DNA of 41,196 nucleotides from Alphaproteobacteria bacterium (GCA_026126245.1 JAHCJT010000004.1:1-41196); one strand, 5' to 3'. Positions 1,613 through 27,152 are shown, counted from the stretch's first letter. Numbers and translations: made by a program. Notes: generated by a model not told the origin, from the letters alone.

Positions 1613-1616
1613 GACA

Positions 1617-7674: not shown

Positions 7675-7728
7675 TTTCCGCGTCGCCACGCCGCGGCCGC
7701 CAGGTTTGGCGAGAGCCGGCGGGCATGA

Positions 7729-9788: not shown

Positions 9789-10006
9789 GCCCGCTCGGAC
9801 AAGTGCCGGCCTTCTGTCCCTCACGCTATGACCTGACGCTCAACCTCGACGATCATCGAGGCGTTGTCAAAAAAACGTCGTGCTGCAGCCGGGCTCAAGC
9901 GCGCGATGCCGTATGCCGCCGGTCTGTCATGGTGACGTCACCGGACAAGCGTCGGCCTCGGCCATCACTTGCAATTCCGCCACCGCCGTCTAAACCGCTA
10001 CCCTGT

Positions 10007-11356
10007 ATGATGATGCCGAAACACCAGTCCGACATGCCGGCAGGTCGGCTCCTGGACCTGTCGCGGATGCTGTCGCGGCTGCGTCGCAGGGCACCGACGG
10101 GAATCGACCGTGTCGAGCTCGCCTATGCCCGACACTATCTCGACAGGTCGGCAGCGCATGACGTGCGGTTCCTGCTGACAAGCCCCATCAACAGCGGATT
10201 GATCACCCGCCGGCTGGCGTCGCGGATCGTGCGGCTGGCGGTACAGCGATGGTCGGCATCGTCCGGGGTGGCGAGCGACGACGCGGCCTTCGTCGACCTC
10301 AGCCGGCTGCTGCAAACGCCGCTAGGCAAGGACCGGACGCACGCCGTCATCAACGCCGCGCCGCGCCACGATACGCATGATCTTCAGGCAGCCGCGCTAC
10401 AATCGGCTGCCTATGTCCAGACGACGTTGCGCGCCGCGTTCAATCCATGGATGAACAGGCTGCCCCGCGGGTCGCATTGGTACCTGCATGTCTCCCATGT
10501 GAACCTGCATGAACCGCGACGCCTGTCGTGGTTTGGTGTCTCTGGGCTACCCGGCATGTTTCTGGTGCATGATCTGATTCCGGTCAGCTATCCCGAGTAC
10601 TTTCGTCCCGAAGAGGATAGGCGGCATCGACGCCGGATCGAGACCATCTCGCGGCTGGCGGATGTTGTCGTCTTCAACTCGAAGGTCACGCAGTCGGCAT
10701 GGCAGGCATATCTCGATTCGAACGGCCTGCCCCAACCGCGGGGCGAAGTCGTGCCTCTGGGAATCGAAAGCGTTTTCCAGACGGGCCGCAGCGGCCCTTC
10801 GATTGTCTCCGAGGTGCCGTATTTCGTCGTCGTCGGCACGATCGAGGCGCGCAAGAATTTGGCCTTCCTGCTTCAGGTGTGGAAGCAATGGAGCGGGGAC
10901 GGACGGCGGGCGCGCGCGCGCCTGGTCGTCGTCGGCCGTCGCGGCTGGGAAAGCGAGAATGCTTGCGACTTGCTGGATCGCAGCGTCGCGCTCGCGCCCA
11001 CGGTCGTGGAGATCGCCGAACTTGGCGATGCCGGCCTGGCCGTCTTGCTGCGCGGGGCGCGCGCGCTGCTGGCGCCGTCTCTCGTCGAAGGTTTCGGTCT
11101 GCCGATCGTCGAAGCGCTCGCGCTGGGCGTTCCCGTCATTGCCTCCGATGTCGAGGCGCATCGCGAGGTGGGCGGCACATTCGTGGAGTATGTCGATCCG
11201 ATCGATGGACCTGGCTGGATGGCCATGCTCGATGCCTATCTCGAGCCAGCATCCCCGCGTCGCGAGATCATGCGCACACGCGCTACAAAATTCCGCCCCA
11301 ATACGTGGGCAGACCATATCGATGCCGTCGAGGCAATCCTTGCGCACCCCGCGTGA
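10007..11356 (+). CDS. GT4-family glycosyltransferase
   Basis: Taking ATG 10007 (MMMPKHQSDMPAGRLLDLS) gives 449 residues. The open frame extends upstream to 9782 without conserved sequence, and ATG 10034 is also possible. The GT-B fold is recognisable: FLVHDLIPVSYPEYF in the N-terminal lobe, VVFNSKVTQSAW, VVVGTIEARKNLAFLL at the lobe junction, and the C-terminal donor site ALLAPSLVEGFGLPIVEALALGVPVIASD with the E-x7-E motif. It resembles mannosyl- or rhamnosyltransferases of O-antigen and capsule clusters. The protein probably adds one sugar to the polysaccharide repeat on the cytoplasmic face. It is divergent from the GT2 gene; the 218-base gap holds a small inverted repeat, CCTCGA (9844-9849) with TCGAGG (9856-9861). 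Confidence 0.9.
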   Translation: MMMPKHQSDMPAGRLLDLSRMLSRLRRRAPTGIDRVELAYARHYLDRSAAHDVRFLLTSPINSGLITRRLASRIVRLAVQRWSASSGVASDDAAFVDLSRLLQTPLGKDRTHAVINAAPRHDTHDLQAAALQSAAYVQTTLRAAFNPWMNRLPRGSHWYLHVSHVNLHEPRRLSWFGVSGLPGMFLVHDLIPVSYPEYFRPEEDRRHRRRIETISRLADVVVFNSKVTQSAWQAYLDSNGLPQPRGEVVPLGIESVFQTGRSGPSIVSEVPYFVVVGTIEARKNLAFLLQVWKQWSGDGRRARARLVVVGRRGWESENACDLLDRSVALAPTVVEIAELGDAGLAVLLRGARALLAPSLVEGFGLPIVEALALGVPVIASDVEAHREVGGTFVEYVDPIDGPGWMAMLDAYLEPASPRREIMRTRATKFRPNTWADHIDAVEAILAHPA

Positions 11357-11561: not shown

Positions 11562-11573
11562 GGAGCAGGTGTG
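11562..11573 (+). promoter_or_regulatory. ribosome binding site and GTG start of rkpA-like PKS
   Basis: GGAG at 11562-11565 lies five bases before GTG 11571. The longer in-frame reading from GTG 11496, and the GTG at 11547, have no comparable Shine-Dalgarno sequence, and the extra residues do not look conserved. This supports GTG 11571 as the initiation codon. Confidence 0.5.
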
Positions 11574-14500
11574 ACTCCACGGGTCAGCAGAAAATCAAAG
11601 CGACGCGAGGTTGCCGTCGTCGGGTATGCGGTGAGGTTGCCCGGCGCCCGGAACCGGCAGGGTTTCTGGCAACTGCTCGCCGATGAGCGCTGCGCCGTCA
11701 GCAAGATTCCGCCGGACCGGTTTCCGACCGAGTCGTTCTATCATCCCAAGGCGCGAACCGACGTGCCCGGCCGCAGCTACACGTTTGCCGCCGGCGTGCT
11801 TGACGACGTGTGGTCGTTCGACCCGACCGTATTCGGGATCAGTCCGCGCGAGGCGGCCCAGATGGATCCGCAGCAGCGGCACCTTCTGGAAGTGACCTAC
11901 GAGGCTTTCGAGCATGCCGGGCTGCGCCCGTCGCAACTCGCCGGCAGCCAGACCGGCGTCTACGTCGGCGCCTCGTCGTCGGACTACGCGACCCGCTTCA
12001 TGTTCGATCCGGCGGCGGTCGACGTCCATATGATGACGGGCAACACGCTCAGCATCATCTCGAACCGGCTCTCCTACTGCTTCGATCTGCGGGGTCCCAG
12101 TTTCACCGTGGATACCGCGTGCTCGTCGTCGCTGGTCGCCATGCACGTGGCGCTGGAAGCGATCCGTGAAGGCAAGATCGACACCGCCGTCGTCGGCGGG
12201 GTCAACATGCTGCTGTCGCCGTTCTCGTTCGTTGGCTTCGCGCGCGCCTCGATGCTGTCGCCGACCGGCCTGTGCAAGGCGTTCGACGCCTCGGGCGACG
12301 GTTACGTGCGCGGCGAGGGGGCTGTGGCCGTGGTGCTGCGCGCCGCCGACGTGGCGCAGCGAAACGGCAATCCGATCCACGCCGTGGTTGTCGGGTCGGG
12401 CATCAACCAGGACGGCCGCACGTCAGGTTTGTCATTGCCGTCGTGGGAGGCGCAGGCGGCGCTGCTCGAACGCGTCTATCGCGAGTTCGACGTGGCGCCC
12501 GACGCGCTCGCCTTTGTCGAGGCCCACGGTACCGGGACACGGGTCGGCGATCCGGCCGAAGCCGAGTCACTGGGTACGGTTTTGGGCCAGCGTCGCAAGG
12601 CGCCGCTGCCGATAGGCTCCGTGAAGACCAATATCGGTCATCTCGAGCCGGCCTCCGGTCTTGCCGGATTCGTCAAGTCGGTCATGGCGCTGGAACACGA
12701 TCTGCTGCCGGCCTCGCTGCATTTCCGCGAGCCCAATCCCGATATCCGCTTCGACGAACTGAACCTCAGGGTTGCGGCGCAGCCGCTGAAGCTGCCCAAG
12801 GGACGAGGACTTCGGCATGCCGGCGTCAACTCGTTCGGCTTTGGCGGCGCCAATGCCCACGTTGTTCTGCGCGAGGCCAGTCGGACGCAGGCGCGCGCCG
12901 CTCCCAAGACGAACGGCGCGGCGTCGCCGCCGCTCATTCTCTCGGCCCACAGCGCCGACGCCCTGAAGGCGCTCGCCGAGCAGTACGGCGACACGCTGCG
13001 GCAGCCGGGTATCACCGCGGCGTCGGTGGCCAATGCGGCAGCGCACACGCGCGATCTGCTGCCGGAGCGGCTGGTGGTCGTGGGCGGCAGGCTCGATGCC
13101 GCCCTCGCGGCGCATGTCAGCGGCGAAACGTCGCCGTCGATGTGGCGCGGCAAGGCCCTGGGCAACAGCATCGACGCCGCCTTCGTGTTTGCCGGCAACG
13201 GCGCGCAGTGGACTGGCATGGGGCTGTCGGCCTACCAAGCCAATGCGGCGTTCCGCGATGCGCTCCAGCGCTTCGACGCGCGCTTCACGGCGGTGGCCGG
13301 CTGGTCCGCGATCGAGGCGTTGCAGTCGCCGAACCTGGCTGTGGAAATCCGGCGCGCCAGCCGGGTCCAGCCCCTGCTGCTGGGGCTGCAGGTCGCCACG
13401 GTGGAGGCCCTTGCGGTCTACGGCCTCGAGCCGGCAATGGCGATGGGCCACAGCGTCGGTGAAATTGCCGCCGCCTGGTGCGCCGGTGGGCTTGATCTGG
13501 ACAGCGCCATCCGGGTCGTGCTGTCGCGCAGTCGCCGGCAGGAGGTCACGCGTCACCAAGGCGGCATGGCCGCGGTGCTGGTGTCGGCCTCGGAGATGGC
13601 GGCCCTGCTCGAGCGCGACGCGTTCGAGGGATTGGAAATTGCCGCGATCAACAGTGCGCGCAGCGTGACGGTGGCCGGCCCGACGCCGGCGCTCGACAGC
13701 TTCATCGCCTACGCCGAGCAGGAACGCTGGGGCGTGCGGCGGCTGGACATCGACTATCCCTACCACTGTGCACTGGTGGATCCGATCGAGCCGCGGCTCC
13801 TGGAAGACCTGGCCGACGTCAAGCCCGGCGCGACCCGCATTGCGTTGATCTCGACGGTGACCGGCGAGGAAATCGAGGGCGAAGCACTGGATGCCCGCTA
13901 TTGGTGGCAGAACGTGCGGCGCCCGGTGTCGTTCGAAGCGGGGATGCGCAGCCTGTGCCAGCGCGGCGCGCAGATCTTCGTCGAGGTCGGGCCGCGGCAG
14001 GTTCTGGGTGGTTATCTTAACGACGCGCTGCGACGCCAGAGCATCCAGGGCGCCGTCATCGACACGCTGGGACGAGACAGCGGCGAGCACGGGGACGAGA
14101 TCCGTGCCGCGGTCGCCCGCGTCCTGGTGGCCGGCGGTCGAGTCGATCTCGACCGCTTTGTCGGTCCGTGCGTGCGGCCGGCGGCCGAGCTGCCGGGCTA
14201 TGCGTGGCAGCGGCGCGTGATCGGCTTCCCCGAGACGCGCGAAGCGTTCGGCGCCTATGCGCCGCCGCCGCATCCGCTCCTGGGCTCGGCGCTTCGGCCG
14301 GACGCCGGCGACTGGTTTGCATCGATTGATCCTCAGCTGTTCCCCTGGCTTGAGGACCACCGGGTCGAGGACACGGCCGTCTTTCCGGCGGCCGGTTTCG
14401 TCGAGATCGCCCTGGCGGCGGCTCGACAGAAATTCGGGAGCGGCGCGCTGGAAGTCCGCGACCTCGAGATCCTGCAACCCCTGGTCTTCGACGGCGTGCG

Positions 14501-17500
14501 CTCCTTCGAACTGATGACGCGGATTTCGCACGATACGAACGTGCTGGAAATCCGGTCGCGGCCCCGACCGGGCGGTGACGAATGGTCGCTGCACGTGCAG
14601 GCGTCGATCGCGCAAGCGCCGGCCGCCGATGCGATCGTCCCGCCTCTGGCAGGCGAGGTCAGCGCCGTGTTCGACGCCGATCAGGTGTACCGCCTCGCGC
14701 AACGCCGCGGGCTGATGTACGGGCCGGCCTTTCGCAAGGCGGGGGCGGTTGAGGTCATCGGCGACCGGACGGCGCACATGGCGTTCGTGACGGCAGAGCC
14801 GGTCGCGGACCACCTCATTCTGGATCCGACAGTGCTCGACGCCGCGTTCCACGTGTCGTTTCCGCTGGCGGAAATGGACGCCGATCTGCCGCCGGATGCG
14901 CGCTTCCTGCCGATCCGCGTCGGCTCCATTCGCGTGTTCCGGCCCGGCGCCAGGGTCAGCCGCGGCCAGTGCCGCATCACGATGGCGACAAGCCGGTCGC
15001 GCGTGGCGGATTTCGTGCTGTTCGATGGTGACGGCAATGTTGTCGCGCAGGCGGTGCAGGTCCGGTTCCGCACGGCGCCGCGCGCGGCGCGGGAAACCAT
15101 GGACAGCCTGGCGTACAAGACCGGTTTCGTACGCCTGCACGCGCCGTCCCAGGCATCGGGAATGGCGGCGGCATGCGGCGCCGGTGCCGCCGACGTGTTG
15201 GCGCACGCCGCGCTCGCCTCGGGTGGCGTCGAAGAGGCGCGCGACGTGTCTCTGGTGCTCGACGCGGCGGCGCGGGTTGCAGCCTACGCGGCGATCAAGG
15301 ACATCCTTGCCACGGCGCCGGCGAGCCGAATGCCGGAACTCGTGGCGGCTGGACACGTGGCCATGTCGTCCTGGCCGCTGGCATCGCGCTTGCTTCAGGC
15401 GCTGTCCGAAGACGGTGTCGCGACGGAAAGCGATCAGGGCTGGCGGTTGTCGAACGCGCCCGATCTGCCGACCATCGGCGAACTGGTCGACGTGTTGCTG
15501 ACGCGCTATCCGGCGTGGGTCGCCGAAGCCACCTGCCTGGCACGCCTGCCCGAAATCCTTCCGGGGTTGCTGCGCGAGGGACTGGACCAGGGCATCGGCC
15601 TGGGCAATGCGGTGCGCGAGCACCTGGAGAGCGGGTCGCCCGCGGTCCTGCGGCTGAGCGACATGGCGCAGCGCGCCGCGCTGGACATCGTCGCGAAGTG
15701 GCCGCAGACGAGCCCGCTGTCCATCCTGGTTGTCGGTGTGCTCAATCTGCCGATGGCCACGCGGCTTGCGCCCGTCGTGGCGGCCATCAACGGGCGGGTC
15801 GTCGTCACGGATCTGGACGATGAGTCGCTGAAAGCCGCTTCCCTGGGGGTATCCGACGCCGCCGCACGCGGCCTGCAGCTCGTCGAATGGAACGAGGCGA
15901 TCGACGGGCGTGGTGGCTATGATCTGGTAGTCTGCGCGCGGACCCTGCACAGGGTGGCTGTCTCGCCGGGGCGACTTGACCTGCTGGCGCGCGCGATCAG
16001 AAAAGGCGGCGCCCTGATCGCCGCCGAACCGGCGCCCAGCCTGTTTGCCGACCTCGTCTATGGGAATGTCCCGTCGTGGTGGGCGGGCTCGGTCAACCCC
16101 GACTTCCCGGTGGGCGCGATCCTGTCCGGTCGCGACTGGCAACAGGCGCTGGAATCGGCGGGATTGCAGGCGGTCACGGTTCAGTCTGCGGGCGGAGAGG
16201 CGGCGGCGGGATTGCTGCTCACTGCCGTCGCCAGCGGCCGCGCCGAAACGACGCCGATCATCAGCGATCTCAGCGCGCGATCGATGATCCTGGTCGCCGA
16301 TTCCACCACCGACAGCCATGTGCTGGCCGATCTGCTGCAGCCCCGTCTGGCAACCGCGGGGCGGGTGGTTCCGCTGCGCGCCAGCGGCGGCACGCACGTC
16401 CAGCGCGGCTCGCGGCGAGTGAGGCTCGTGGACTTGCAGGAAGCCGAGGCCGCGGCCGGCGCGATCGCCGATCAGGTCACGCTCGGCGCTATTACCGACG
16501 TGATTTTCGTGGCCGTCAGCCGCGCCGCGGCCGACGATCCCGTGGCACGGCTGTCGCGCCAGTCGATGACGGTCATCAACCTGGCGAAGGCGCTCGCGGG
16601 CACCAGCACGGTCCGTCTGTGGATTGTCTGCTCAGGCGCCCTGAACGGCGTGGTGGACGGGCAGGCGCCGAACCCGGTGCAATGCGGGCTCTGGGCGATG
16701 GCGCGGGTCATCCAGAACGAGTTCGCCGACATCGACGTGCGCTGCGTCGACGTCGATCCCTCTCTGGCATCCGATGCCGCCGCCAGTCGCGTCGCCGAGG
16801 TGGTGGCCGAACCGGGCGAGGAGCGGGAATTGAGGCTCGACGCCCATGGGCGGTCGGCGCCGCGCCTGCTGCGTGGCGGCATCCTGCCGGAGCCGCGAAC
16901 GGGGCCGGTCGGCGAAAATGGCGTGATGCGCCTTGCGTTCGACCGCGCGGGGCAGTCCGACGGCTTTGTCTGGCGATCGCTCCCGCGCCGGCCGCCACAA
17001 GCCGGCGAGGTCGAGATCGACGTGGCGGCGACCGGTCTGAATTTCCGCGACGTCATGTGGAGCCTGGGGTTGCTGCCGGACGAGGCGCTGGAGAACGGGT
17101 TTACGGGCCCGGCCATCGGCATGGAGTGCGCCGGCGTCGTGCGTGCCGTCGGATCGGGGGTGGATAACCTGCGGATTGGCGATCGGGTCGTGGCGTTTGC
17201 CGGCAATGCCTTCGCCAGTCGGGTGACGGTCGGCCGCCAGACGGTTGCACGCATTCCCGACGGTGTCTCGTCCGAGGCGGCGGCGACCCTGCCGGTCGCC
17301 TTCCTGACGGCGTACTACGCGCTGGTGCACCTCGCCCGCCTGGAGGCCGGCGAAACCGTGCTCATTCACGGGGGCGCCGGCGGCGTTGGCCTGGCGGCGC
17401 TGCAGATCGCCAAGTTGCGCGGCGCCAAGGTGATCGCGACCGCGGGCTCGCCGGACCGCCGCGCTCTGCTGCGCGAGCTGGGCGCCGACCATGTCTTCGA

Positions 17501-19181
17501 CTCCCGCAGTCTGGCGTTCGTCGATGACGTCAGCCGCGTCACCGGCGGCGCGGGCGTCGAGGTTGTGCTGAACTCGCTGGCCGCCGAGGCGATGGAGCGT
17601 TCCGTCGACTGCCTCAAGCCGTTCGGGCGGTTCCTGGAACTCGGAAAGCGCGATTTCTACACTAACCGTCATCTGGGCCTGCGGCCGTTCCGCAACAACC
17701 TGTCGTATTTCGGCATCGACGCCGACCAGTTGCTCGGTGCGCACGCGTCGGTGGTCGAGAAGCTGTTCGGCGAACTGATGGGCATGTTCGCCAGCGGCCA
17801 GCTTGTGCCGCTGCCCTATCGCGTGTTCGAGGCCGATGATGTCGGCAAGGCATTCCGGCTGATGCAGCGGTCGGGCCACATCGGCAAGATCCTCGTGCGG
17901 CCGCCGAAATTGCCGCCGCAGGCGAGGGTGCCGACGCCGTTCGCCGTCGATCCGCACGGTCTCTACTTGATTGTCGGCGGTCTGGGCGGATTTGGCCTGG
18001 CGACGGCGCAGTGGCTCGCGGCAAAGGGTGCGCGGCACCTGGCGGTTGTCAGCCGCTCGGGTAAGCCGTCGGATCAGGCAACCGAGGCGCTGCGCGAACT
18101 CAAGTCCAGCGGCGTGCAGGTCGAGGTTGCCGCCGTCGACGTCGGCGATCCGGCGGCGCTCGAGCGGTACCTGCTGACGGTGAAGGCCGGCCCGGCGCCG
18201 CTGAAAGGCGTGTTCCACACCGCCATGGTGATCGACGACGGCCTGGCCCGGGACCTCGACCGCGGGCGCATGGAAGCGGTGCTGCGTCCCAAGGTCGCGG
18301 GCGCCTATCATCTCGATCGCCTGACACGCCGCTTCGACCTCGACTGCTTCGTGCTGTTCTCGTCGGCGACGGTCCTCGTCGGCAATCCCGGCCAGGCCAA
18401 CTACGTCGCCGCCAACGCCTACCTCGAGGGCCTGGCGCAGCGGCGACGCGCCGAAGGGCTGCCGGCGCTGGCGGTCTCGTGGGGTGCGATCGGCGATGTT
18501 GGCTATCTGGCGCGCAATGCGGCCGTGAACAAGGTGCTGGCGCAGCGGCTCGGCGGCGCGGCGCTGTCGGCCGGTGAAGCCCTGGCCGGGCTGGACGCGC
18601 TGTTATCCCTCGGCAATCGCGAGGTGCACGAGGCGGCGTTGGGCTATGCGCGGATGGACTGGGCGCTGATCCGCAAGGAGCTGCCGATCGCCAAGACGTC
18701 GCTGTTTGGGGAGCTTCGGCTGCCGGAGGCGACGGCTGACGGAACGTCGATGGCGGCCGAGGAACTGATGCGGATGCTGCGCGAACTGCCGGAGGCGGAA
18801 GTACACGCCAAGCTCGCCGATCTCATTGTCGGCAACATCACGCGCACGTTGCGGCTGCCCACGGCCGACATCGATCGCAACCGGGCCCTGTCCGAACTCG
18901 GCATGGACTCGCTGATGATGCTGGAACTGCGGGCCGCGGTCGAGGAGTCGATGGGGATAGAAATCCCATTGATGTCGTTGACGAGCAGCCTGACGGTGAT
19001 CGATATCAGCAAGCGGCTGGCGGCCATGCTTCGGACCCAGGAGAATGCTCTGATGTCGGCGCAGATGTCGGCGCTCACCCAGGGGCACCTGCAGGTTCCG
19101 GAGGTTGCGTCGGACGCGCAGGTCGCCACGGCAGCGGCGGCGGTGGCGCAGCGCGCCAAGACGGTGGAGGGCATTCTATGA
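11571..19181 (+). CDS. rkpA: single-module fully reducing type I polyketide/fatty-acid synthase (RkpA-like)
   Basis: About 2536 residues. KS (about 15-440) has the active-site DTACSSS (Cys184), EAHGTGT and NIGHLEPASG. AT (about 540-860) has GHSVGE near 627; its specificity motif reads YPYH, so malonyl versus methylmalonyl cannot be called. DH (about 900-1170) has HRVEDTAVFP, an Asp replacing the usual Gly of HxxxGxxxxP, plus DPTVLDAAFH. A degenerate C-methyltransferase region (about 1180-1560) lacks the Gly-rich SAM loop. A structural pseudo-KR half precedes ER (about 1785-2100, GGAGGVGLAALQ). KR (about 2130-2320) has GGLGGFG and NYVAAN. ACP has LGMDSLMML (Ser2447). No thioesterase is present. 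One module implies iterative chain building. The layout and neighbours match RkpA of Sinorhizobium K-antigen synthesis. The stop overlaps the rkpG start (ATGA), so release by the oxoamine synthase is likely. Confidence 0.92.
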   Translation: MTPRVSRKSKRREVAVVGYAVRLPGARNRQGFWQLLADERCAVSKIPPDRFPTESFYHPKARTDVPGRSYTFAAGVLDDVWSFDPTVFGISPREAAQMDPQQRHLLEVTYEAFEHAGLRPSQLAGSQTGVYVGASSSDYATRFMFDPAAVDVHMMTGNTLSIISNRLSYCFDLRGPSFTVDTACSSSLVAMHVALEAIREGKIDTAVVGGVNMLLSPFSFVGFARASMLSPTGLCKAFDASGDGYVRGEGAVAVVLRAADVAQRNGNPIHAVVVGSGINQDGRTSGLSLPSWEAQAALLERVYREFDVAPDALAFVEAHGTGTRVGDPAEAESLGTVLGQRRKAPLPIGSVKTNIGHLEPASGLAGFVKSVMALEHDLLPASLHFREPNPDIRFDELNLRVAAQPLKLPKGRGLRHAGVNSFGFGGANAHVVLREASRTQARAAPKTNGAASPPLILSAHSADALKALAEQYGDTLRQPGITAASVANAAAHTRDLLPERLVVVGGRLDAALAAHVSGETSPSMWRGKALGNSIDAAFVFAGNGAQWTGMGLSAYQANAAFRDALQRFDARFTAVAGWSAIEALQSPNLAVEIRRASRVQPLLLGLQVATVEALAVYGLEPAMAMGHSVGEIAAAWCAGGLDLDSAIRVVLSRSRRQEVTRHQGGMAAVLVSASEMAALLERDAFEGLEIAAINSARSVTVAGPTPALDSFIAYAEQERWGVRRLDIDYPYHCALVDPIEPRLLEDLADVKPGATRIALISTVTGEEIEGEALDARYWWQNVRRPVSFEAGMRSLCQRGAQIFVEVGPRQVLGGYLNDALRRQSIQGAVIDTLGRDSGEHGDEIRAAVARVLVAGGRVDLDRFVGPCVRPAAELPGYAWQRRVIGFPETREAFGAYAPPPHPLLGSALRPDAGDWFASIDPQLFPWLEDHRVEDTAVFPAAGFVEIALAAARQKFGSGALEVRDLEILQPLVFDGVRSFELMTRISHDTNVLEIRSRPRPGGDEWSLHVQASIAQAPAADAIVPPLAGEVSAVFDADQVYRLAQRRGLMYGPAFRKAGAVEVIGDRTAHMAFVTAEPVADHLILDPTVLDAAFHVSFPLAEMDADLPPDARFLPIRVGSIRVFRPGARVSRGQCRITMATSRSRVADFVLFDGDGNVVAQAVQVRFRTAPRAARETMDSLAYKTGFVRLHAPSQASGMAAACGAGAADVLAHAALASGGVEEARDVSLVLDAAARVAAYAAIKDILATAPASRMPELVAAGHVAMSSWPLASRLLQALSEDGVATESDQGWRLSNAPDLPTIGELVDVLLTRYPAWVAEATCLARLPEILPGLLREGLDQGIGLGNAVREHLESGSPAVLRLSDMAQRAALDIVAKWPQTSPLSILVVGVLNLPMATRLAPVVAAINGRVVVTDLDDESLKAASLGVSDAAARGLQLVEWNEAIDGRGGYDLVVCARTLHRVAVSPGRLDLLARAIRKGGALIAAEPAPSLFADLVYGNVPSWWAGSVNPDFPVGAILSGRDWQQALESAGLQAVTVQSAGGEAAAGLLLTAVASGRAETTPIISDLSARSMILVADSTTDSHVLADLLQPRLATAGRVVPLRASGGTHVQRGSRRVRLVDLQEAEAAAGAIADQVTLGAITDVIFVAVSRAAADDPVARLSRQSMTVINLAKALAGTSTVRLWIVCSGALNGVVDGQAPNPVQCGLWAMARVIQNEFADIDVRCVDVDPSLASDAAASRVAEVVAEPGEERELRLDAHGRSAPRLLRGGILPEPRTGPVGENGVMRLAFDRAGQSDGFVWRSLPRRPPQAGEVEIDVAATGLNFRDVMWSLGLLPDEALENGFTGPAIGMECAGVVRAVGSGVDNLRIGDRVVAFAGNAFASRVTVGRQTVARIPDGVSSEAAATLPVAFLTAYYALVHLARLEAGETVLIHGGAGGVGLAALQIAKLRGAKVIATAGSPDRRALLRELGADHVFDSRSLAFVDDVSRVTGGAGVEVVLNSLAAEAMERSVDCLKPFGRFLELGKRDFYTNRHLGLRPFRNNLSYFGIDADQLLGAHASVVEKLFGELMGMFASGQLVPLPYRVFEADDVGKAFRLMQRSGHIGKILVRPPKLPPQARVPTPFAVDPHGLYLIVGGLGGFGLATAQWLAAKGARHLAVVSRSGKPSDQATEALRELKSSGVQVEVAAVDVGDPAALERYLLTVKAGPAPLKGVFHTAMVIDDGLARDLDRGRMEAVLRPKVAGAYHLDRLTRRFDLDCFVLFSSATVLVGNPGQANYVAANAYLEGLAQRRRAEGLPALAVSWGAIGDVGYLARNAAVNKVLAQRLGGAALSAGEALAGLDALLSLGNREVHEAALGYARMDWALIRKELPIAKTSLFGELRLPEATADGTSMAAEELMRMLRELPEAEVHAKLADLIVGNITRTLRLPTADIDRNRALSELGMDSLMMLELRAAVEESMGIEIPLMSLTSSLTVIDISKRLAAMLRTQENALMSAQMSALTQGHLQVPEVASDAQVATAAAAVAQRAKTVEGIL

Positions 19182-20561
19182 ACGACATGCCCGATCCCGC
19201 CGGCATGTCGAAGCGGGCCACCGCCGACAAGCTTCTCGACAAGCTGCGTACCTCGGCCAGCCCGTCGCCAGACAAGGCGGCACAGCCGCGACGCGGATCG
19301 CCGGTGGCGACCGCGCGGCGCGCGGCGGATTTCTCGGCGCTGCCGGAATACCAGGCGCTGAGGGTGCAACGCGCCGCGGCCGACATGCTGAAGATCGAGG
19401 TGCCGTTCTTCCGCATGCACGAGGGCAGGGCGGCCGATACCACCGTCGTCGAAGGCCGCACGGCGCTCAATTTCTCGACCTACGACTATCTGGCGATGAA
19501 CGGCGATCCGCGGGTGTCGGCGGCCGCCAAGGAGGCGATCGACCGCTATGGCACGTCAGTCGGCGCCAGCCGGCCGACCGCCGGCGAGCGGCCGATCTAT
19601 CGCGACCTCGAGGCGGCGCTGGCGCGACTGCATGGGACGGAGGACGCGCTGTGCTTCGTCAGCGGCCACGCCACCAACGTCACGGTCATCGGCTGCCTGC
19701 TGGGCAAGAAGGATCTGATCGTCGCCGACGCCTATGCGCACAACAGCATTGTCGAAGGCGCCAAGCTGTCGGGGGCGACCAGCCTGCTGTTCCCCCATAA
19801 CAACCTGGATTCGCTGGAAGACCTGTTGCGCGAGCATCGGCCGCGCTATCGACGGGCGCTGGTCGTGGTCGAGGGTCTACAGCATGGATGGCGACATGCC
19901 CGACATGCGCCGTCTGCTGGCCATCAAGCGCCGCCACGATGCCTGGCTCATGGTCGACGAGGCCCACTCCAGCGGCGTTCTGGGCGAGCACGGCAGGGGC
20001 ATCGCCGAGGAGCAGGACATCGATCCGACCGAAGTCGAGATCTGGATGGGCACGCTCAGCAAGGCCTTTGCCTCGACCGGCGGCTATATCGCCGGCAGCA
20101 AGGCGCTCGTCGAATTCCTGAAGCTGCAGAGTCCCGGCTTCGTCTACAGCGTCGGCATGGCGCCGTCGGTCGCGGCCGCGGCGCTGGCATCGTTGAAGAT
20201 TCTCGAACGGGAGCCGGCGCGCGTGGCGGCGCTGCGGGCCAACGGCGCGCTGTTCCTGCAGCATGCCAGGGCTGCCGGCCTGGATGTTGGCCAAAGCATC
20301 GGCGCCTCGGTCGTTTCCGTCATGACCGGCGATACGCTGACCACGGTGCAACTCGCCAACAGGCTGCTGCAGCAGGGTCTTTACGTTGTGCCCATCATTT
20401 TCCCGGCCGTGGGCGAGAAGCAGGCGCGGCTGCGGTTCTTCATCACGGCGCGCCATTCGGCGCAGCAGATCGAGGCGGCGGTCGACCTGACGGCACGGGA
20501 ACTGTCGCGGCTGCGCAAGGAGGCGCCGATCGCCTTCGGGTTGGCGCAGACCGGCAACTAG
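19178..20561 (+). pseudogene. rkpG: alpha-oxoamine synthase (RkpG-like, BioF/serine palmitoyltransferase family), frameshifted
   Basis: A PLP fold-type I enzyme read in two frames. From ATG 19178 the first frame gives an unconserved 100-residue leader, then LNFSTYDYLAMNGDPRV, GTSVGASRPTAGERPIY, FVSGHATNVTVIG and RRALVVVEG. The second frame, entered near 19875, continues YSMDGDMPDMRRLLAIK, MVDEAHSSGVLGEHG (PLP-contacting Asp and His) and GTLSKAFASTGGYIAG with the PLP-binding Lys (codon 20061). It then runs to a normal C-terminus. The family condenses an acyl thioester with an amino acid, losing CO2, to give a 2-amino-3-ketone. The gene overlaps the PKS stop, pointing to direct off-loading of the ACP-bound chain. 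As written, the protein would lose its catalytic half. An indel error or real inactivation are both possible. Confidence 0.87.
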
Positions 20562-21364
20562 CCTCTGTCGTCGGCGATCTCGCGCTCGCCCTCCGGGTCA
20601 GGCTCGACCGTGGCCGCGAGGCGACCGACGATCCAGCGATACAGCGGCGATGGGGCAAGCGCCATCAGCCGGATGCCGAGCGCGAGTTGCCAGGGGAACG
20701 CGACAAGAGGCCGCTTGCGGTCAAGGCGGCGGCGGATGTAGCCGGCGGCCCTGTCCGCCGGCCACGCAAAGTGATTCGCGCCGCGGTGCCGCCGGCTCAT
20801 GGCGGAAGCGACATACCCGGGACAGACAACACTGATCGTCACGCCACTGGATCTTAGCCAGACGCCCAGAGCCGTGCCGTACGACACCAGCCCGGCCTTG
20901 CTGGCACTGTAGGCGGGCATGTGTGGCTGCGGGACCAGACCCGCGAGCGAACTCACGAATGCCACGTGACCTGTCCGGCGCTGCTGCATCCGATCGAGCA
21001 GCGCGGCAGCGGTCCTGACCGCGCCCGTCAGGTTGACATCGATGGTGCGCTGCGCCGACGCGAGTGGCTCGATCGTTCCTTGAGCATCGACGCCGGTCTG
21101 CACGCCGGCGTTGACGATCAGCAGATCGACGGGGTGCCGCCGGTCGAAGGAGTGCAGCCAGTCGGTCAGGCGCTCGGCATCCCGCACATCAAGCAAACCG
21201 GTCTCGACCGTCGCGCCGCGCCCGCGGCAAGCCTCGGCCACTTCCTCCAGCCGCTGCGGGTCGCGCCCCAGCAGGCCGAACGTCGTGCCGGCGCCGGCGT
21301 ACTCGATCGCCAGGGCCCGGCCGATGCCGCCGGATGCGCCGGTGATCACCACGGTCCGCGCCAT
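20558..21364 (-). CDS. rkpH: short-chain dehydrogenase/reductase (RkpH-like, possible 3-keto-lipid reductase)
   Basis: A 268-residue classical SDR from ATG 21364 (MARTVVITGASGGIGRAL). It shows the NAD(P) motif TGASGGIG, NAG in LLIVNAGVQTG, the catalytic Ser in FVSSLAG, and YSASK. A C-terminal hydrophobic stretch (VAFPWQLALGIRLMALAP) resembles membrane-associated lipid-modifying SDRs such as 3-ketosphinganine reductases. Paired with an oxoamine synthase, the likely job is reduction of the 2-amino-3-keto lipid to an amino alcohol (inference). Its ATG overlaps the stop of the KpsS-like gene by one base (TGATG), so the two are translationally coupled. Its stop interleaves with the rkpG stop in a CTAG, leaving no room for a terminator between convergent genes. 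Confidence 0.87.
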   Translation of the reverse strand: MARTVVITGASGGIGRALAIEYAGAGTTFGLLGRDPQRLEEVAEACRGRGATVETGLLDVRDAERLTDWLHSFDRRHPVDLLIVNAGVQTGVDAQGTIEPLASAQRTIDVNLTGAVRTAAALLDRMQQRRTGHVAFVSSLAGLVPQPHMPAYSASKAGLVSYGTALGVWLRSSGVTISVVCPGYVASAMSRRHRGANHFAWPADRAAGYIRRRLDRKRPLVAFPWQLALGIRLMALAPSPLYRWIVGRLAATVEPDPEGEREIADDRG

Positions 21365-22644
21365 CAGGCTGCACCTCGGCCGTCGGCGACAGCCCGTGGC
21401 GGCAGCCACGGCAGGCCCTCCTCAAGACGCTGCACCGTCGCGGGCACGGCCATGTCGAGCGCCTGTTGCGTGTAGTAGCCGCCGCGCACGTGCAGGGCGC
21501 CGGCAAGCAGGCGGATGAAATCGCTGACCAGCGTCGGGTCGGGCCGTGGTGGCGTTGTCCAGAAATCCGCCAGCGGCCCCTGAAACGTCATCCCCGGCAC
21601 GTCGAAGATGGCGTTGCCCAGGACTTTGAGGGGGCAGCCGCGCTGCAGCGCGAACAACCCCACCGTGCTGTTGACCAGGACGCAGCCGGCGGCGGCTCGC
21701 AGCATCTCGCCAAGATCGCCGCCGTCGACGTAGAAAACCCGCTCGGCGACGCGGCTGTCGGCGGCCATCCGGGCAATTGTCCGCCGCCAGGGCGTGAGGC
21801 CGGCATCGAGTGGGTGCACCTTCACGACCAGACGCGACGATGGCGGCGCGTGGGCGGCAAACGAGGCGATGACCTCGCGCGCGGCCGTCGGCATGTCGGG
21901 ATAGGGCGAGTGGTCGCGGATTTGATAGTCGGTCGACAGTTGCAGCGGCAGGACAAAGGTCGGGGCGTCGCTGGCGCGCAGTGCCTCGAAGGCGCGGGCC
22001 GTGCGCCGTCGCTCGATGGGCGATAGCAGCCAGTGCCGGACCCAGGCGGCATACTCGGCAAAGGGATGATAGATCGCGTGCCGCTTGTAGCCAGGGTATA
22101 GCGGCCAGAACAGGACCGCGGCGCCGTTGTAGACGATATCCAGCACGGACAATCGCCAGAAGGGCGTGGTGCAGCGGATTTTCATGTCGGGCGGTCCGAA
22201 CTTCGCAGCGAAGGCGCGGATCGTCTCGGGATCGCGCGGCATACGGGAATAGGTGCTCATCCCGTCGCGCTCCAGCACCAACCAATCCGGTCGCAGATAG
22301 CCGAGTTCGGCGCAGATGATCTCTGCGCCGCGAGCGCGCGCCTCCTCGATGGCAATGCGATGGTGCGGACGGCGGTCGCCCAGCAGGAACAGATGGGTGA
22401 TCGGGTCGGCATCGAGGATGCGCGTGATATAGGCGTGCCAGCCGTCGATCGTGCCACGGTAGTCCCTCGCGGGCAGGCGCCAGAACAAGCGGTCACCGAA
22501 ATGCAAATTGATCCGCGACGCGCGATGACCGCGGGCGATCAGCAAACGGGCAACTTGCTCCATGTAGAATGACGAGGGTCCTTGCAGGAAAAGCACATGA
22601 AGCGGCCCCGTACGCTGATGGTGCTGGGTATCCTCGTCGGCCAT
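21364..22644 (-). CDS. rkpJ: KpsS-type capsule polysaccharide synthesis protein (RkpJ-like)
   Basis: The 426-residue protein matches the KpsS/LipB capsule family. An N-terminal LFLQGPSSFYMEQVARLLIARGH is followed by INLHFGDRLFW, HLFLLGDRRPHH, CAELGYLRPDWLVLERDGMS and FVLPLQLSTDYQIRDHSPY. The diagnostic C-terminal motifs are LVVKVHPLD and CVLVNSTVGLFALQRGCPLKVLG. KpsS proteins of group 2 capsules are beta-Kdo transferases acting on the phospholipid terminus at the cytoplasmic membrane. In Sinorhizobium the homologue RkpJ is needed for K-antigen. No KpsC partner is present in this window. It is the first gene of a minus-strand pair with rkpH and is divergent from rkpI across about 150 bases. 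Confidence 0.88.
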   Translation of the reverse strand: MADEDTQHHQRTGPLHVLFLQGPSSFYMEQVARLLIARGHRASRINLHFGDRLFWRLPARDYRGTIDGWHAYITRILDADPITHLFLLGDRRPHHRIAIEEARARGAEIICAELGYLRPDWLVLERDGMSTYSRMPRDPETIRAFAAKFGPPDMKIRCTTPFWRLSVLDIVYNGAAVLFWPLYPGYKRHAIYHPFAEYAAWVRHWLLSPIERRRTARAFEALRASDAPTFVLPLQLSTDYQIRDHSPYPDMPTAAREVIASFAAHAPPSSRLVVKVHPLDAGLTPWRRTIARMAADSRVAERVFYVDGGDLGEMLRAAAGCVLVNSTVGLFALQRGCPLKVLGNAIFDVPGMTFQGPLADFWTTPPRPDPTLVSDFIRLLAGALHVRGGYYTQQALDMAVPATVQRLEEGLPWLPPRAVADGRGAA

Positions 22645-22767
22645 CGTGTTTCGTGCAGGTTCCGGGGGCAGGGCTGGCTCTTAATGGCTTCGACCGTGTT
22701 TGTCATCCGTACGACCGCTCGCCGCCGGGGTTGATGAAGCGGGTGTTCTGTGACTCTATGCTTGTCT

Positions 22768-22808
22768 GCGCCCGACGCGCGGATTTTGCACGGATTTGCG
22801 TCGGGCGC
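22768..22808 (+). promoter_or_regulatory. strong hairpin spanning the apparent rkpI start
   Basis: A perfect 11-base inverted repeat, GCGCCCGACGC (22768-22778) and GCGTCGGGCGC (22798-22808), encloses a 19-base loop. The loop contains an imperfect direct repeat (CGGATTTTGC, CGGATTTGC). The first usable start codon of the rkpI frame (TTG 22796) lies at the loop/stem edge, and no Shine-Dalgarno sequence is visible. In RNA the stem could block initiation; in DNA it could be a repressor site in the rkpJ-rkpI divergent promoter. Confidence 0.45.
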
Positions 22809-24321
22809 TGGAGGCAGCCTTCTTGCTGTTTGCCGCATCTTTCATTCTGTATCTCTGCCTCGCCCTGCTGATCGATTCGCGGGCGGCGCCGCGTGGCCGT
22901 TTCCTCAGGCGGCCTGTCTGGGGGCACGTGACATCGGTTGTCGGTCTGAGCCTGCTGTACGCGGTGTGGTTTGCGCCGTCGCTCCGGCCGGTGTTCGCGT
23001 CCGGGGCGGCCCTGATCTCGCTCAGCATTGTGATCCTGATCTCGGACTACAAGTTCCAGAACGTGCAGGAACCCCTGAACTTCATGGATTTCGCGCTCAT
23101 CCCGCAAATCTGGCGTCATCCGATGCTCTACCAAGCCAAGTTCCTGCGTCATCCGCTGTTTGTTGCCGCCGTCGCCGGCGTGCTGGGCATCATCTTCGGC
23201 TGGTGTCAGTTCGTCGAGCCGCCGCTGCTGGCCGGTGCGCAGTACGGGATGGGGGCCGCGGCCGCTACCGCGCTTGTCGCGGCGGTGATCGTCTGGAGCG
23301 TTGCCGGCCCTCTGCCGGCGAAGCTGACCTCGGGCTTGCATCGTCGTCTCATTCCGGTCAATTCGGCCCGCACGTCCGTGAACTCGGTCTGACAGCGTCC
23401 CTGGTTGCCGGTTTCCTGGGCTGGCGTCTGCCGATCGTCGGGGCGCCATCGGCACCTGCGACCGTCCGGGCGCTCGATGGTGCCACGGATCCGGCGCCCG
23501 TGGTCATCGCGGTCCAATCGGAGTCATTCGTCGACCTGCATGGCGCCGGCCTGCACGCGGAAAAGCTGCCGGCCCTGGAAGCGGCGAGGAGCCAGGCGGT
23601 CGCGCACGGGCGGGTCAAGGTGCCGGTCCAGGGTGCCTGGACGCTGCGCTCGGAGTTTGTCTTTCTGGCGGGGCGCCCGCTGGAGACCTTCGGCCTGGAT
23701 GCGCTGCATCCCTATCTGCGGCTGCCGACCCCGCCGCGCACACTGGCGCATCAGCTGCGCGATGCCGGTTTCGCGACCACGTTCATGCATCCGTTCGACT
23801 TGTCGTTTTTCAACAGGCGTGCCGCGATGCCGAAACTCGGCTTCGACCAGCTGCTCGACGACGAGGACTTCGCGCAGGTGGCGCGCGATGGCTACTTTGT
23901 GCCGGACCTGGCTCTTGCCGACCGGGTCCTGTCGGCGGCGGCGGCGGATTCGCGGCCCATGTTCTGCATGATCGCGACCATGGAAAACCACAACCCGTGG
24001 GACAAGCAGCGCCTGCCGGGGATCACGACGCCCGTCGAACAGTACGTGCATCATCTGCGCAACGCCGACCGGATGATCGACCGCCTGACGCATGGCATCG
24101 AGCAGCTGGAGCGGCCGGCGGTGTTCGCGTTCTACGGCGATCACGTGCCGACTATGCCGGATCTTGCAGACCCGTTTCCTGACCCGCGGACCGACTACTT
24201 TGTCATGGGCCGACGCAACGGCACATGGCTTGCGGGCGGCCACCACGATTGCGATCTGCACGAACTCGCGGACATCGTGCTGGAGACGCTCAATCAGGTC
24301 CGTGGTGCCGCGGCGGCGTAG
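22796..24321 (+). pseudogene. rkpI: membrane-anchored LtaS/sulfatase-fold protein (RkpI-like), frameshifted
   Basis: The first frame (from about TTG 22796) encodes four or five membrane segments: AFLLFAASFILYLCLALLI, VTSVVGLSLLYAVWF, ALISLSIVILI, and a pair near GVLGIIFGW and TALVAAVIVWSVAG. It runs into a stop at 23392. A second frame takes over between about 23340 and 23375 with FGPHVRELGLTASLVAG. That frame carries an alkaline-phosphatase-superfamily domain: VVIAVQSESFVDL (metal site), the TLRSEFVFLAG segment with the LtaS-type nucleophile Thr, MFCMIATMENHNPWD, and VFAFYGDHVPTM (metal site). Fused, this is the normal architecture of the LTA-synthase-like family. Sinorhizobium RkpI is a membrane protein of the K-antigen locus. 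A role in transferring a phosphate-linked head group is possible but unproven. The start codon is uncertain. Confidence 0.8.
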
Positions 24322-24426
24322 GTCGCCTTTGTGACGCCGCGATGGCGCCGCCAAAGTTTCATGCCGGTGTCGGACGGCGTGGATGTTCAATGGGCCGGAA
24401 AGGGCCTAGACTCTGCGTCTGTCGAT

Positions 24427-24451
24427 GTCGCAGTCGACGACTGACTGCGAC
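24427..24451. terminator. inverted repeat in the rkpI to radical SAM gap
   Basis: The 222-base gap (24322-24543) holds a perfect 9-base inverted repeat, GTCGCAGTC (24427-24435) and GACTGCGAC (24443-24451), with a 7-base loop. It is about 105 bases after rkpI and 92 before the radical SAM gene. No T-run follows, so it is either a weak terminator or a protein-binding site. Nothing else is evident in the gap. Confidence 0.3.
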
Positions 24452-24543
24452 GGTCGGACGACGGCGCAGTGAGACCGCGGAATGGGTGCCGGTCGCCCCA
24501 AGTCCATACCCTCTGATCCGCCACAAGGACACAGGCGAGGCGC

Positions 24544-26259
24544 ATGATCCCCAACGTCCTGATGGTGTTCCCCAAGTTCAACCCGAACTCGTTCTGGAGT
24601 CTCCAGGCGGCGTGCGACGTCTGGGGCGCGCGGTGCCCGGCACCGCCGCTGGGTCTCATCACCGTCGCGGCGCTGTTGCCGCCGGACTGGCCGGTTCGGC
24701 TGGTCAATCGCAATGCCGAAGAGCTGACAGCGGCCGACCTCGACTGGGCCGATATGGTCATGACCGGCGGCATGCTGCCGCAGCGGCCCGACGCGCTGGC
24801 GTTGATCGAGCTTTGCCGCCAACACGGCAAGCCGGTGGTCGTCGGTGGCCCCGACGTATCCTCGAGCCCGGAAGTCTATGAGGCTGCCGATTTCCGGGTC
24901 GTTGGCGAAGCCGAGGGTATCATTGACCGCTTCGTTGACGCGTGGAACGCGGGCGACCGTAGCGGCCTGTTCCAGGCCGAGAAATTCAAGATCGACGTCA
25001 CGAAGAGCCCGATACCCCGGTTCGACCTGCTCAAGCTCCAGCACTACCTGTTCGTCGGCGTGCAGTTCTCGCGCGGTTGCCCGTTCAACTGCGAATTCTG
25101 TGACATCATTGAACTGTATGGCCGCGTTCCGCGATCGAAGTCGAACGAGCAGATGCTGGCTGAGCTCGACGCGCTGTACCGCACGGGCTATCGCGGCCAT
25201 GTCGACTTCGTCGACGACAACCTCATCGGCAACAAGAAGGCGCTGAAGAAGTTCCTGCCGGCGCTGCGCGACTGGCAGCGGGCGCGCGGCCATCCCTTCA
25301 AGTTCTCGACCGAGGCGTCGATCAACCTGGCGGACGACGCGCAGCTGCTGCAGATGATGCGCGACGCCAATTTCTTCGTCGTCTTCGTCGGCATCGAGAG
25401 CCCCGACACGGCGACGCTGGTGTCGGCGCAGAAAAAGCAGAATACGCGGCGCAGCCTGGCGGAGAGCGTCCATCGCATCTACGCCGCCGGTATGTTTGTC
25501 ACGGCCGGCTTCATCATCGGCTTCGACACCGAGCAGACCAACGTGGCCGACGGCATGGTCGACTGCATCGAAGCCACGAGCATTCCGTGGTGCATGGTCG
25601 GCCTGCTGACGGCACTGCCGAACACCCAGCTGACGCGGCGTCTGGAAAAGGAGGGGCGGCTGCTGCACGACGTCTGGGGCGGCAGCGAGGCGGACCAGTG
25701 CACGGGCGGCCTGAATTTCGTGACGCTGCGGCCCAAGCGCGAGGTGCTGGCCGACTATCGCGCGGTCCTGCAGCGGGTCTACGAACCGGCCGCGTTTTTT
25801 GCCCGGGTGCGGCATGTCGGCCGGGTTCTGCGGCGGTCAAACCCCGGCGCCGCGCCGCCGGCTGCAAGCGACGCCGGACCGGTTCCGCCGGGCAACGAGG
25901 TGCCTGCAACCGCGGCGACGGACACCATGGCCGAGTCTGGCGCCGGGTCGGCGTCGTGGATCGAGGCCAGGACGGCCCTCTGGAAGGGCAGGCTGCGCGA
26001 GTATCGTGCCTTGGCGCGCGTGATGTGGCGCATGACGGTGCGCCGCCCCGATCTGCGCCGGCATTTCTGGCGCACCTTCATCGATTGCGCGCGTCACAAC
26101 CCGGCGGCCCTGGAGTACATTGTGATGATGATGGTCGTGTACCTTCACCTGGGGACGTTCGCCGACTTCGTCATCAGGGAACTGGACCAGCGCATCGAGA
26201 GCGAGCCGGCCCGGGTGCAGCCGGCCGTGGCGCTGCGCGGCGTGCCGCAAATTGCCTAG
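24544..26259 (+). CDS. cobalamin-binding radical SAM protein with DUF4070-like C-terminus
   Basis: A 571-residue protein from ATG 24544, preceded by GGCGAGG. The N-terminal B12-binding-type Rossmann domain (residues about 1-140) starts VLMVFPKFNPNSFW and includes PPLGLITVAALLP, MVMTGGMLPQ and VVVGGPDVSS. The radical SAM core has SRGCPFNCEFCDI (Cys179, 183 and 186), binding the [4Fe-4S] cluster. Later come FVDDNLIGN, FVGIESPD and AGFIIGFDTEQ. The C-terminal part (MRRPDL-type region to LDQRI) matches DUF4070, but a Pro/Ala/Gly-rich linker of about 50 residues (near 430-480) interrupts it. HpnP-like relatives methylate hopanoids; other members' substrates are unknown. Its place behind the lipid/capsule genes suggests C-methylation of a lipid or sugar here, as inference. 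Confidence 0.88.
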   Translation: MIPNVLMVFPKFNPNSFWSLQAACDVWGARCPAPPLGLITVAALLPPDWPVRLVNRNAEELTAADLDWADMVMTGGMLPQRPDALALIELCRQHGKPVVVGGPDVSSSPEVYEAADFRVVGEAEGIIDRFVDAWNAGDRSGLFQAEKFKIDVTKSPIPRFDLLKLQHYLFVGVQFSRGCPFNCEFCDIIELYGRVPRSKSNEQMLAELDALYRTGYRGHVDFVDDNLIGNKKALKKFLPALRDWQRARGHPFKFSTEASINLADDAQLLQMMRDANFFVVFVGIESPDTATLVSAQKKQNTRRSLAESVHRIYAAGMFVTAGFIIGFDTEQTNVADGMVDCIEATSIPWCMVGLLTALPNTQLTRRLEKEGRLLHDVWGGSEADQCTGGLNFVTLRPKREVLADYRAVLQRVYEPAAFFARVRHVGRVLRRSNPGAAPPAASDAGPVPPGNEVPATAATDTMAESGAGSASWIEARTALWKGRLREYRALARVMWRMTVRRPDLRRHFWRTFIDCARHNPAALEYIVMMMVVYLHLGTFADFVIRELDQRIESEPARVQPAVALRGVPQIA

Positions 26260-26309
26260 CGTCCGGCGGTGGTGCGGGCGCGATGTTAGCTGACGATCAG
26301 GCCTGAGCG

Positions 26310-27152
26310 ATGGAGTTGGAAACCGTTCTGCGGGCCATGACGCCGGGCGCCGGCTGGCTGGACTTCGCCGTGCTGCTGGCGGTGGTGATCGCAGCCATCG
26401 TGGCGATCCTGCTGGGCACCGGCCTGTTCTTCGAGGTCATGAACGCGCGGCACCCCGAGCGCAAGGTGCAGAAGAACCGGGTCAACCGGCGCAAGTGGCG
26501 GGAATTGGCCTATGCGCCGGGCTCGATCTTCACCCTCTCGCTGTGCTTCGCCGCCGGCCTGTTCGCGCAATGGCAGGGTTGGGCCCTGACGCCGCTGCCG
26601 CTGTCGTGGTGGTCGGGGCCGCTGATGCTGCTGATCTCGGTGCTGCTCTACGACACTTGGTTCTACTGGGTGCATCGCTTGCTGCATCTGCGGCCGATGA
26701 TGCGGTTCCATGCGCTGCACCACACCAGCGTCTCGCCGACCTGCTGGACGAACCACCACGAGACCATCGTTGAGGCCCTGCTGAACCAGCTGTTCTATTT
26801 CGTGATCGTGTTCGTGCTGCCGATTCCCTGGCCGATGCTGGTGGCGCAGAAGATCTACGACCAGATCAGCGGCATGCTGGGCCATGCCGGCTACGAGCAT
26901 TTCGCCTCGCCGCTGGCCCGCGCCCCCTGGCCGCTGGCCAGCACCGTGTTCCACGACCAGCACCACGGCCATTTCCGCTACAATTTCGCGCACACCTTCT
27001 CGGTCTGGGACCGCATGATGGGCACGCTGTATCCCGGCTACGACGCCACGGTGGAAGCGTTCGAGCGCGGCGCGCCGCCGGCCGAGGCGCCGGCGGTCAG
27101 ATCAGGCCGTGATACGAGCCCCCGTCGAGCTGCAGATTCTGTCCCGAAATGA
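26310..27152 (+). CDS. sterol desaturase / fatty acid hydroxylase family membrane protein
   Basis: A 280-residue integral membrane di-iron protein from ATG 26310. Hydrophobic segments include WLDFAVLLAVVIAAIVAILL, TLSLCFAAGLFAQW, LMLLISVLLYDTWFYWV and YFVIVFVLPIPWPML. The histidine clusters of the superfamily are all present: HRLLH, FHALHHTS, NHHE, GHAGYEHF and FHDQHHGHFRYNF. Members insert oxygen at unactivated carbons of sterols, fatty acids and sphingoid bases (yeast Sur2 is one). It lies 50 bases after the radical SAM gene in the same direction, so the two are probably co-transcribed, and it follows the PKS/oxoamine-synthase set. Hydroxylation of the lipid made there is a plausible role. 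Its last 56 bases overlap the 3' end of the convergent SDR gene. Confidence 0.88.
   Translation: MELETVLRAMTPGAGWLDFAVLLAVVIAAIVAILLGTGLFFEVMNARHPERKVQKNRVNRRKWRELAYAPGSIFTLSLCFAAGLFAQWQGWALTPLPLSWWSGPLMLLISVLLYDTWFYWVHRLLHLRPMMRFHALHHTSVSPTCWTNHHETIVEALLNQLFYFVIVFVLPIPWPMLVAQKIYDQISGMLGHAGYEHFASPLARAPWPLASTVFHDQHHGHFRYNFAHTFSVWDRMMGTLYPGYDATVEAFERGAPPAEAPAVRSGRDTSPRRAADSVPK

Follow-up and report, generated by a model that had tools for sequence, protein, structure and literature searches.

The rkp-1 genes of Sinorhizobium make a specific lipid carrier for the K-antigen, and secretion of K-antigen or poly-Kdo (Kdo, 3-deoxy-D-manno-oct-2-ulosonic acid) is lost in rkp-1 mutants (PMC4881576). 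The lipid acceptor of rkp/wcb capsules has been a "specific lipid carrier" since 1997, without a defined structure in the literature searched. In Escherichia coli, KpsS transfers Kdo to (lyso-)phosphatidylglycerol (PMC7694667). In the PfSgaABC system of Pseudomonas fluorescens MYb115, a polyketide synthase (PKS) and an alpha-oxoamine synthase (AOS), homologous to those considered here, yield C24–C28 sphinganines and phosphoglycerol-sphinganines; SgaB is a serine palmitoyltransferase, the AOS joining L-serine to acyl-CoA by condensation, and the phosphoglycerol-sphinganines were assigned from lipids of 154 Da greater mass (PMC12134224). Neither an assigned headgroup enzyme nor a mention of capsule or rkp genes was found in the text of that paper, and no paper joining the Sga and Rkp pathways was found among the mostly open-access journal papers searched. 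Here we describe a PKS-AOS locus with capsule genes that touches on both systems, in a stretch of 41,196 nucleotides from Alphaproteobacteria bacterium (GCA_026126245.1 JAHCJT010000004.1:1-41196), hereafter the window. It is an entire contig (G000:C334) of a fragmented metagenome-assembled genome (MAG) of 4.98 Mb in 496 contigs, 87.7% complete, the closest named relatives of which are Reyranella sp. CPCC 100927 and Rhodospirillaceae bacterium SYSU D60007.

Judged by its gene content, the region 11571–24321 is a capsule lipid cluster of the rkp-1/wcb type, with genes for a PKS, an AOS, a short-chain dehydrogenase/reductase (SDR), a KpsS-like protein and an LtaS-like protein, the last three being homologues of RkpH (SDR), RkpJ (KpsS-like) and RkpI (LtaS-like). 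All five are present in the rkp-1 region of Sinorhizobium, the AOS being 50% identical to that of S. meliloti and the KpsS-like protein 46% identical to the protein at the RkpJ position, and the open reading frame (ORF) of S. meliloti pSymB between the SDR and KpsS-like genes, that is, at the rkpI position, encodes an LtaS-like protein and is a homologue of the window gene. Since the same core of PKS-AOS, SDR, LtaS-like and KpsS-like genes recurs in other bacteria, S. meliloti included, the window carries the equivalent of rkpA-G-H-J-I. It differs from rkp-1 in the inversion of the SDR and KpsS-like genes and in the addition of genes for a B12 radical SAM (S-adenosylmethionine) protein and a hydroxylase, neither of which is annotated within 14 kb of the AOS in S. 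meliloti Ak57. The gene set is not a single operon, because the SDR and KpsS-like genes lie on the minus strand and the others on the plus strand. The entire block is syntenic in three further genomes of the same genus; the CPCC 100927 copies (L038) stood in for the window AOS and LtaS-like protein in comparisons.

All Pfam families named in a preliminary description of the locus (PKS, AOS, SDR, KpsS-like, LtaS-like, B12 radical SAM and FA_hydroxylase) were recovered with matches far above chance. The iterative PKS of the RkpA/WcbR/SgaA type (11571..19181, plus strand) is a single module with the Pfam domain order ketosynthase (KS), acyltransferase (AT), dehydratase (DH), dead C-methyltransferase (cMT), enoylreductase (ER), ketoreductase (KR) and acyl carrier protein (ACP), and it has no thioesterase, as had been described. 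The KS, AT, DH, ER, KR and ACP motifs are intact, and the protein is 73% identical to its L038 homologue. The AT motif GHSVGE, common to 36 of 38 homologues, presumably denotes the malonyl type by the motif rule. The predicted product is a saturated unbranched chain; branching by the cMT was considered and rejected, the SAM motif of the methyltransferase region being degenerate here as in nearly all RkpA-type PKSs. The proposed translational coupling of PKS and AOS is borne out by an ATGA overlap that places the AOS start at 19178, but the 559-residue ORF opening there (19178–20857) is not one protein: residues 1–235 match relatives in frame 2 and the remainder of the AOS lies in frame 3 up to 20561. 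The frame is disrupted near 19876, and the apparent long ORF is an artefact of that break.

The RkpG/SgaB-type AOS gene (19178..20561, plus strand) is thus divided in this assembly, its two parts matching the intact L038 gene product (461 amino acids) at 82% and 88%, with the pyridoxal phosphate lysine motif TLSKAF in the second part. PDB relatives of the AOS include serine palmitoyltransferases, and it is putatively serine palmitoyltransferase-like in the Sga sense. Its 3' end at 20561 meets end to end the SDR gene (20558..21409, minus strand; adh_short, E 9e-43), a candidate 3-ketosphinganine reductase (KDSR) of the RkpH/SgaC-like kind, which shares 42–46% identity with SDRs encoded in PKS-AOS loci of Pseudomonas and Paraburkholderia; a PDB sequence search returned generic SDRs only, none of them KDSR-specific. 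With PfSgaABC the locus shares an iterative PKS, an AOS with serine palmitoyltransferase activity shown there and predicted here, and an SDR that is a candidate KDSR. The latter was described as a secondary-metabolite pathway in which capsule was not considered, and neither a B12 radical SAM protein nor an FA_hydroxylase was described there (PMC12134224).

The product of the next gene (21364..22644, minus strand) belongs to the RkpJ/KpsS-like Kdo transferase family (Capsule_synth, PF05159, E 6e-74). Its L038 orthologue matches the NCBIfam KpsS equivalog NF050054 with E 7e-67 and 226.5 bits, short of the cut-off of 600, so the label is kept at KpsS-like only; a PDB sequence search with the KpsS-like protein gave nothing useful. 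The candidate RkpI-like phosphoglycerol transferase of the LtaS/GacH family (22796..24321, plus strand) has a Sulfatase domain and five predicted N-terminal transmembrane segments, and its gene is split near 23371. The closest PDB structure to the intact L038 orthologue is the GacH phosphoglycerol transferase (E 1e-10), and 13 members, among them the S. meliloti gene at the rkpI position, retain the metal ligands and catalytic Thr of LtaS/GacH. The AlphaFold model of the LtaS-like protein (predicted local distance difference test score, pLDDT, 43.0) was too poor for use.

The core recurs, in varying order, across alpha-, beta- and gammaproteobacteria, with named examples on plasmids of Pseudomonas sp. 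TMW 2.1634, Paraburkholderia dioscoreae and Shinella and on S. meliloti pSymB. KpsS-like genes adjoin PKS-AOS in many lineages and the LtaS-like gene stands directly beside the PKS in several. The capsule locus of the Pseudomonas sp. TMW 2.1634 plasmid (L134, NZ_CP016850.1) also has KpsC, KpsF and KdsB, and four genes (PhyH, KpsC, GNAT and lipoteichoic acid (LTA) synthase) occupy its SgaB-SgaC interval; from the spacing of locus tags, the four tags between SgaB and SgaC in MYb115 would be those same four genes.

Taken together, these data make it about an even chance, in our opinion, that the locus produces a dedicated sphingoid lipid and that a capsule exported by an ABC transporter is assembled on it. 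The iterative PKS would build up a long acyl chain, saturated and unbranched, on its own ACP; the AOS would release it by decarboxylative condensation with serine to give 3-ketosphinganine; and the SDR would reduce this to sphinganine. The RkpI/LtaS-like protein, the obvious candidate for the source of the phosphoglycerol headgroup, would then transfer phosphoglycerol from phosphatidylglycerol to the 1-hydroxyl, giving phosphoglycerol-sphinganine, and the KpsS-like protein would place the first Kdo on the glycerol of this lipid, after which the capsule would be extended and exported. The two proteins are proposed to make and use this lipid because phosphoglycerol-sphinganine is a single-chain mimic of lyso-phosphatidylglycerol, the acceptor of KpsS. 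Such a role agrees with the long-standing idea of a specific lipid carrier produced by the rkp-1 genes (PMC4881576). The scheme thus shares with group 2 capsules a KpsS-family enzyme and, as proposed, a phosphoglycerol acceptor, which here would be a sphingoid one, unlike the glycerophospholipid acceptor of group 2. In this genus, the HpnP-like radical SAM protein may C-methylate the alkyl chain and the di-iron hydroxylase may add a hydroxyl group, tuning the anchor. The first three steps were shown in the homologous Sga cluster, the third being proposed there, and the others, like the substrate of the two modifiers and the lipid anchor itself, we infer here. The long-chain amino alcohol that the preliminary description had suggested as capsule acceptor is thus supported in part: the PKS-AOS-SDR chemistry is established in a homologous cluster (PMC12134224), and the acceptor role is a proposal.

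The core gene set is already known from rkp/wcb and the chemistry from Sga; the radical SAM and hydroxylase genes are a variant layer upon them, syntenic in 4/4 genomes of this genus. The radical SAM gene (24544..26259, plus strand) encodes B12-binding, Radical_SAM and DUF4070 domains with a CxxxCxxC motif, a domain set shared with HpnP, the hopanoid C-2 methylase, and HpnP-like proteins, the non-HpnP clades of which are uncharacterised and of no known function (PMC10697835). The likeness to HpnP is by domain set only, and the window protein differs in that it tracks PKS-AOS; it is a putative methylase of the lipid alkyl chain. In Reyranella (genus g3), the gene occurs at >=59% identity in 9/9 AOS-positive vs 0/6 AOS-negative genomes (p=2e-4), this and the other co-occurrence statistics being profile correlations without species-tree correction. 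In a tree built among relatives only, the Reyranella proteins form two separate subclades, both only in AOS-positive genomes among those sampled, so the gene was probably gained more than once. In family f71, the close radical SAM clade occurs in eight genomes, seven of them AOS-positive (p=2e-4). In G018 the gene and the PKS are divergent neighbours, in G830 it lies next to an SDR where the contig ends, and in G858 a KpsM-like gene is ~7 kb away.

The adjacent gene (26310..27152, plus strand) encodes a putative lipid hydroxylase of the sterol-desaturase superfamily (FA_hydroxylase, PF04116, E 6e-24). With Sur2 and OlsE, the protein shares membrane location and the di-iron histidine motifs HX3H/HX2HH/HX2HH, which are invariant in the genus. 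Assignment as OlsE was rejected, the NCBIfam equivalog giving a weak sub-cut-off match of 21.2 bits against 475, and no Sur2-specific evidence was found, so that a Sur2-like sphingoid C4 hydroxylase is a putative and unproven assignment. A PDB sequence search with the hydroxylase gave nothing useful, and its AlphaFold model (pLDDT 40.6) was too poor for use. Among 289 Alphaproteobacteria, all 7/7 genomes with a close hydroxylase homologue are AOS-positive, as compared with 12/289 overall (p=2.6e-11); these counts include the window genome and one congener, by which the family-level figure (5/5 families, p about 1e-7) is less affected. A close homologue was defined by E < 1e-40 (>=39% identity), the next match being at 1.5e-28, and this gap was set after seeing the data. 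In family f71, 3/4 hydroxylase carriers are AOS-positive, the hydroxylase and AOS sharing a contig at distances of 6, 16 and 41 kb, and the remaining carrier is a MAG of 82% completeness. On the Shinella plasmid (L127), a 48%-identical hydroxylase lies ~16 kb from the PKS, within the capsule region.

Both modifiers thus track the AOS, from the class through the family to the genus, though they are usually unlinked to it. The preliminary description would have been undermined had they never been found with rkp genes elsewhere; on the contrary, each is found together with RkpG-type AOS much more often than chance would give, and they are physically linked to cluster genes in several lineages (G018, G212, G830, G863 and Shinella; loci L082, L112, L115, L124 and L127). 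Because they are elsewhere mostly present alongside the same lipid machinery, they probably act on the capsule lipid.

The combined reading is that a Gram-negative capsule is anchored on a PKS-made phosphoglycerol-sphingoid lipid, which some lineages tailor through C-methylation by a B12 radical SAM protein and hydroxylation by a di-iron enzyme (others perhaps with PhyH or a P450), and that the RkpI-type LtaS-like protein fills the vacant place of phosphoglycerol transferase in the Sga pathway as well as in the Rkp pathway; as a whole it is put forward tentatively, at clearly less than even odds. Several observations weigh against the proposed pathway. The literature searched yielded no account of the terminal lipid of any rkp/wcb capsule. 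LtaS-family catalysis faces the periplasm and KpsS works at the cytoplasmic face, so that a flip or another order of steps would be needed. Most AOS-positive genomes have no hydroxylase, and close radical SAM orthologues (58–60% identity) stand alone on plasmids of Acetobacteraceae (Komagataeibacter, Acetobacter) and Methylocystis, one of them adjoining a lipid A acyltransferase-like gene. Finally, the present assembly has broken reading frames for the AOS and the LtaS-like protein.

The stand-alone orthologues, together with the HpnP-like domain set and the no more than weak OlsE match of the hydroxylase, speak for an alternative in which the radical SAM protein and the hydroxylase have another target, such as the polysaccharide, hopanoids or the chains of lipid A, and occur here by chance or shared lifestyle. 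It is a serious possibility, if one that we would not bet on: both genes follow the AOS at three taxonomic levels even where unlinked, the two Reyranella radical SAM subclades are confined to AOS-positive genomes among those sampled, and a PKS-adjacent SwfC-like homologue exists in L063. A comparison of the radical SAM gene's neighbours outside the PKS context (L061, L062, L064-L069, L113, L114 and L129-L133) revealed no consistent partner.

It is also conceivable, but in our view fairly unlikely, that the exported polysaccharide rather than a lipid receives glycerol phosphate from the LtaS-like protein, in the manner of GacH acting on its glycan. GacH is its nearest solved structure and the predicted topology is periplasmic; on the other hand, the gene travels with PKS-AOS-SDR across three proteobacterial classes, directly beside the PKS in several lineages, and phosphoglycerol-sphinganines were assigned in MYb115. 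That the sphingolipid made by PKS, AOS and SDR is free, whether in the membrane or secreted (the proposal for P. fluorescens MYb115), with the capsule genes as mere neighbours, is unlikely: the MYb115 lipids were described with no mention of capsule or rkp genes (PMC12134224), and most other Reyranella have PKS-AOS with neither KpsS-like nor LtaS-like genes within 10 kb, but rkp-1 mutants lose K-antigen or poly-Kdo secretion (PMC4881576), and KpsS-like genes adjoin PKS-AOS in many lineages, KpsC, KpsF and KdsB being added in Pseudomonas. Decay of the pathway, with no lipid made, is quite unlikely: frames are broken near 19876 and 23371 and in the N-terminal part of an upstream GT2 gene (9181–9758, spread over three frames), but the 7.6-kb PKS, KpsS-like, radical SAM and hydroxylase genes are intact, as are the AOS and LtaS-like genes in three congeners, and the breaks may be either assembly indels of a 496-contig MAG or real lesions.

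Joining the sphinganine result of 2025 to the capsule genes gives the proposed anchor a concrete, testable form, phosphoglycerol-sphinganine, with RkpI named as candidate headgroup enzyme, and it offers a testable substrate for two uncharacterised groups, the HpnP-like radical SAM clade and the hydroxylase clade. If true, this would be a bacterial counterpart of modified sphingolipid anchors and would imply that bacterial sphingolipid production is wider than canonical serine palmitoyltransferase operons suggest.

The left flank of the window carries sugar-nucleotide, glycosyltransferase and ABC-2 exporter genes. Directly upstream of the PKS lies a GT4 glycosyltransferase gene (9782..11356, plus strand), conserved in the genus at 56–66% identity in L037, L038 and L070, and the region 383..9510 encodes a sugar C-methyltransferase, an epimerase/dehydratase, a nucleotidyltransferase, an ABC transporter ATPase, a KpsM-like permease and a GT2 glycosyltransferase. 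Beyond ~28 kb rightward, a GntR regulator, a branched-chain amino-acid ABC transporter and catabolic genes lie outside the pathway.

Other enzymes accompany related loci. In L134, a PhyH dioxygenase, located beside the AOS, and a GNAT protein are encoded between the AOS and LTA synthase and are perhaps another route to hydroxylate or acylate the same lipid. On the Shinella plasmid (NZ_OZ000537.1), a cytochrome P450 and a lipid A-type acyltransferase beside the capsule lipid genes (L127, 23441–25845) are candidates for tailoring or N-acylation of the lipid. In L082 (G212, 162–3832), genes for a CysNC-like adenosine phosphosulfate kinase, an Stf0 sulfotransferase and the hydroxylase stand in a row near PKS-AOS, which suggests a sulfated relative of the lipid. 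The AOS-positive genome G559 (L111, 4091–9458) has the HpnP-like radical SAM gene in three tandem copies.

A more distant setting is offered by L063 (G099, 6377–17798), an alphaproteobacterial swfABC-like operon of PKS, B12 radical SAM and reductase-sulfotransferase genes. Like the swf cluster of sponge symbionts (PMC3908369), it resembles the window in a mono-modular PKS followed by a B12 radical SAM protein of the same broad family (43% identical to the window protein) and differs in chain release, which is by a reductase/sulfotransferase protein and not by an AOS. An LpxC-like deacetylase gene is placed between PKS and AOS on the Paraburkholderia dioscoreae plasmid (L137). RkpG-type AOS, at 42–52% identity, are also encoded on Streptomyces and Nocardia plasmids and on a Planktothrix plasmid, the last being annotated as a type I PKS.

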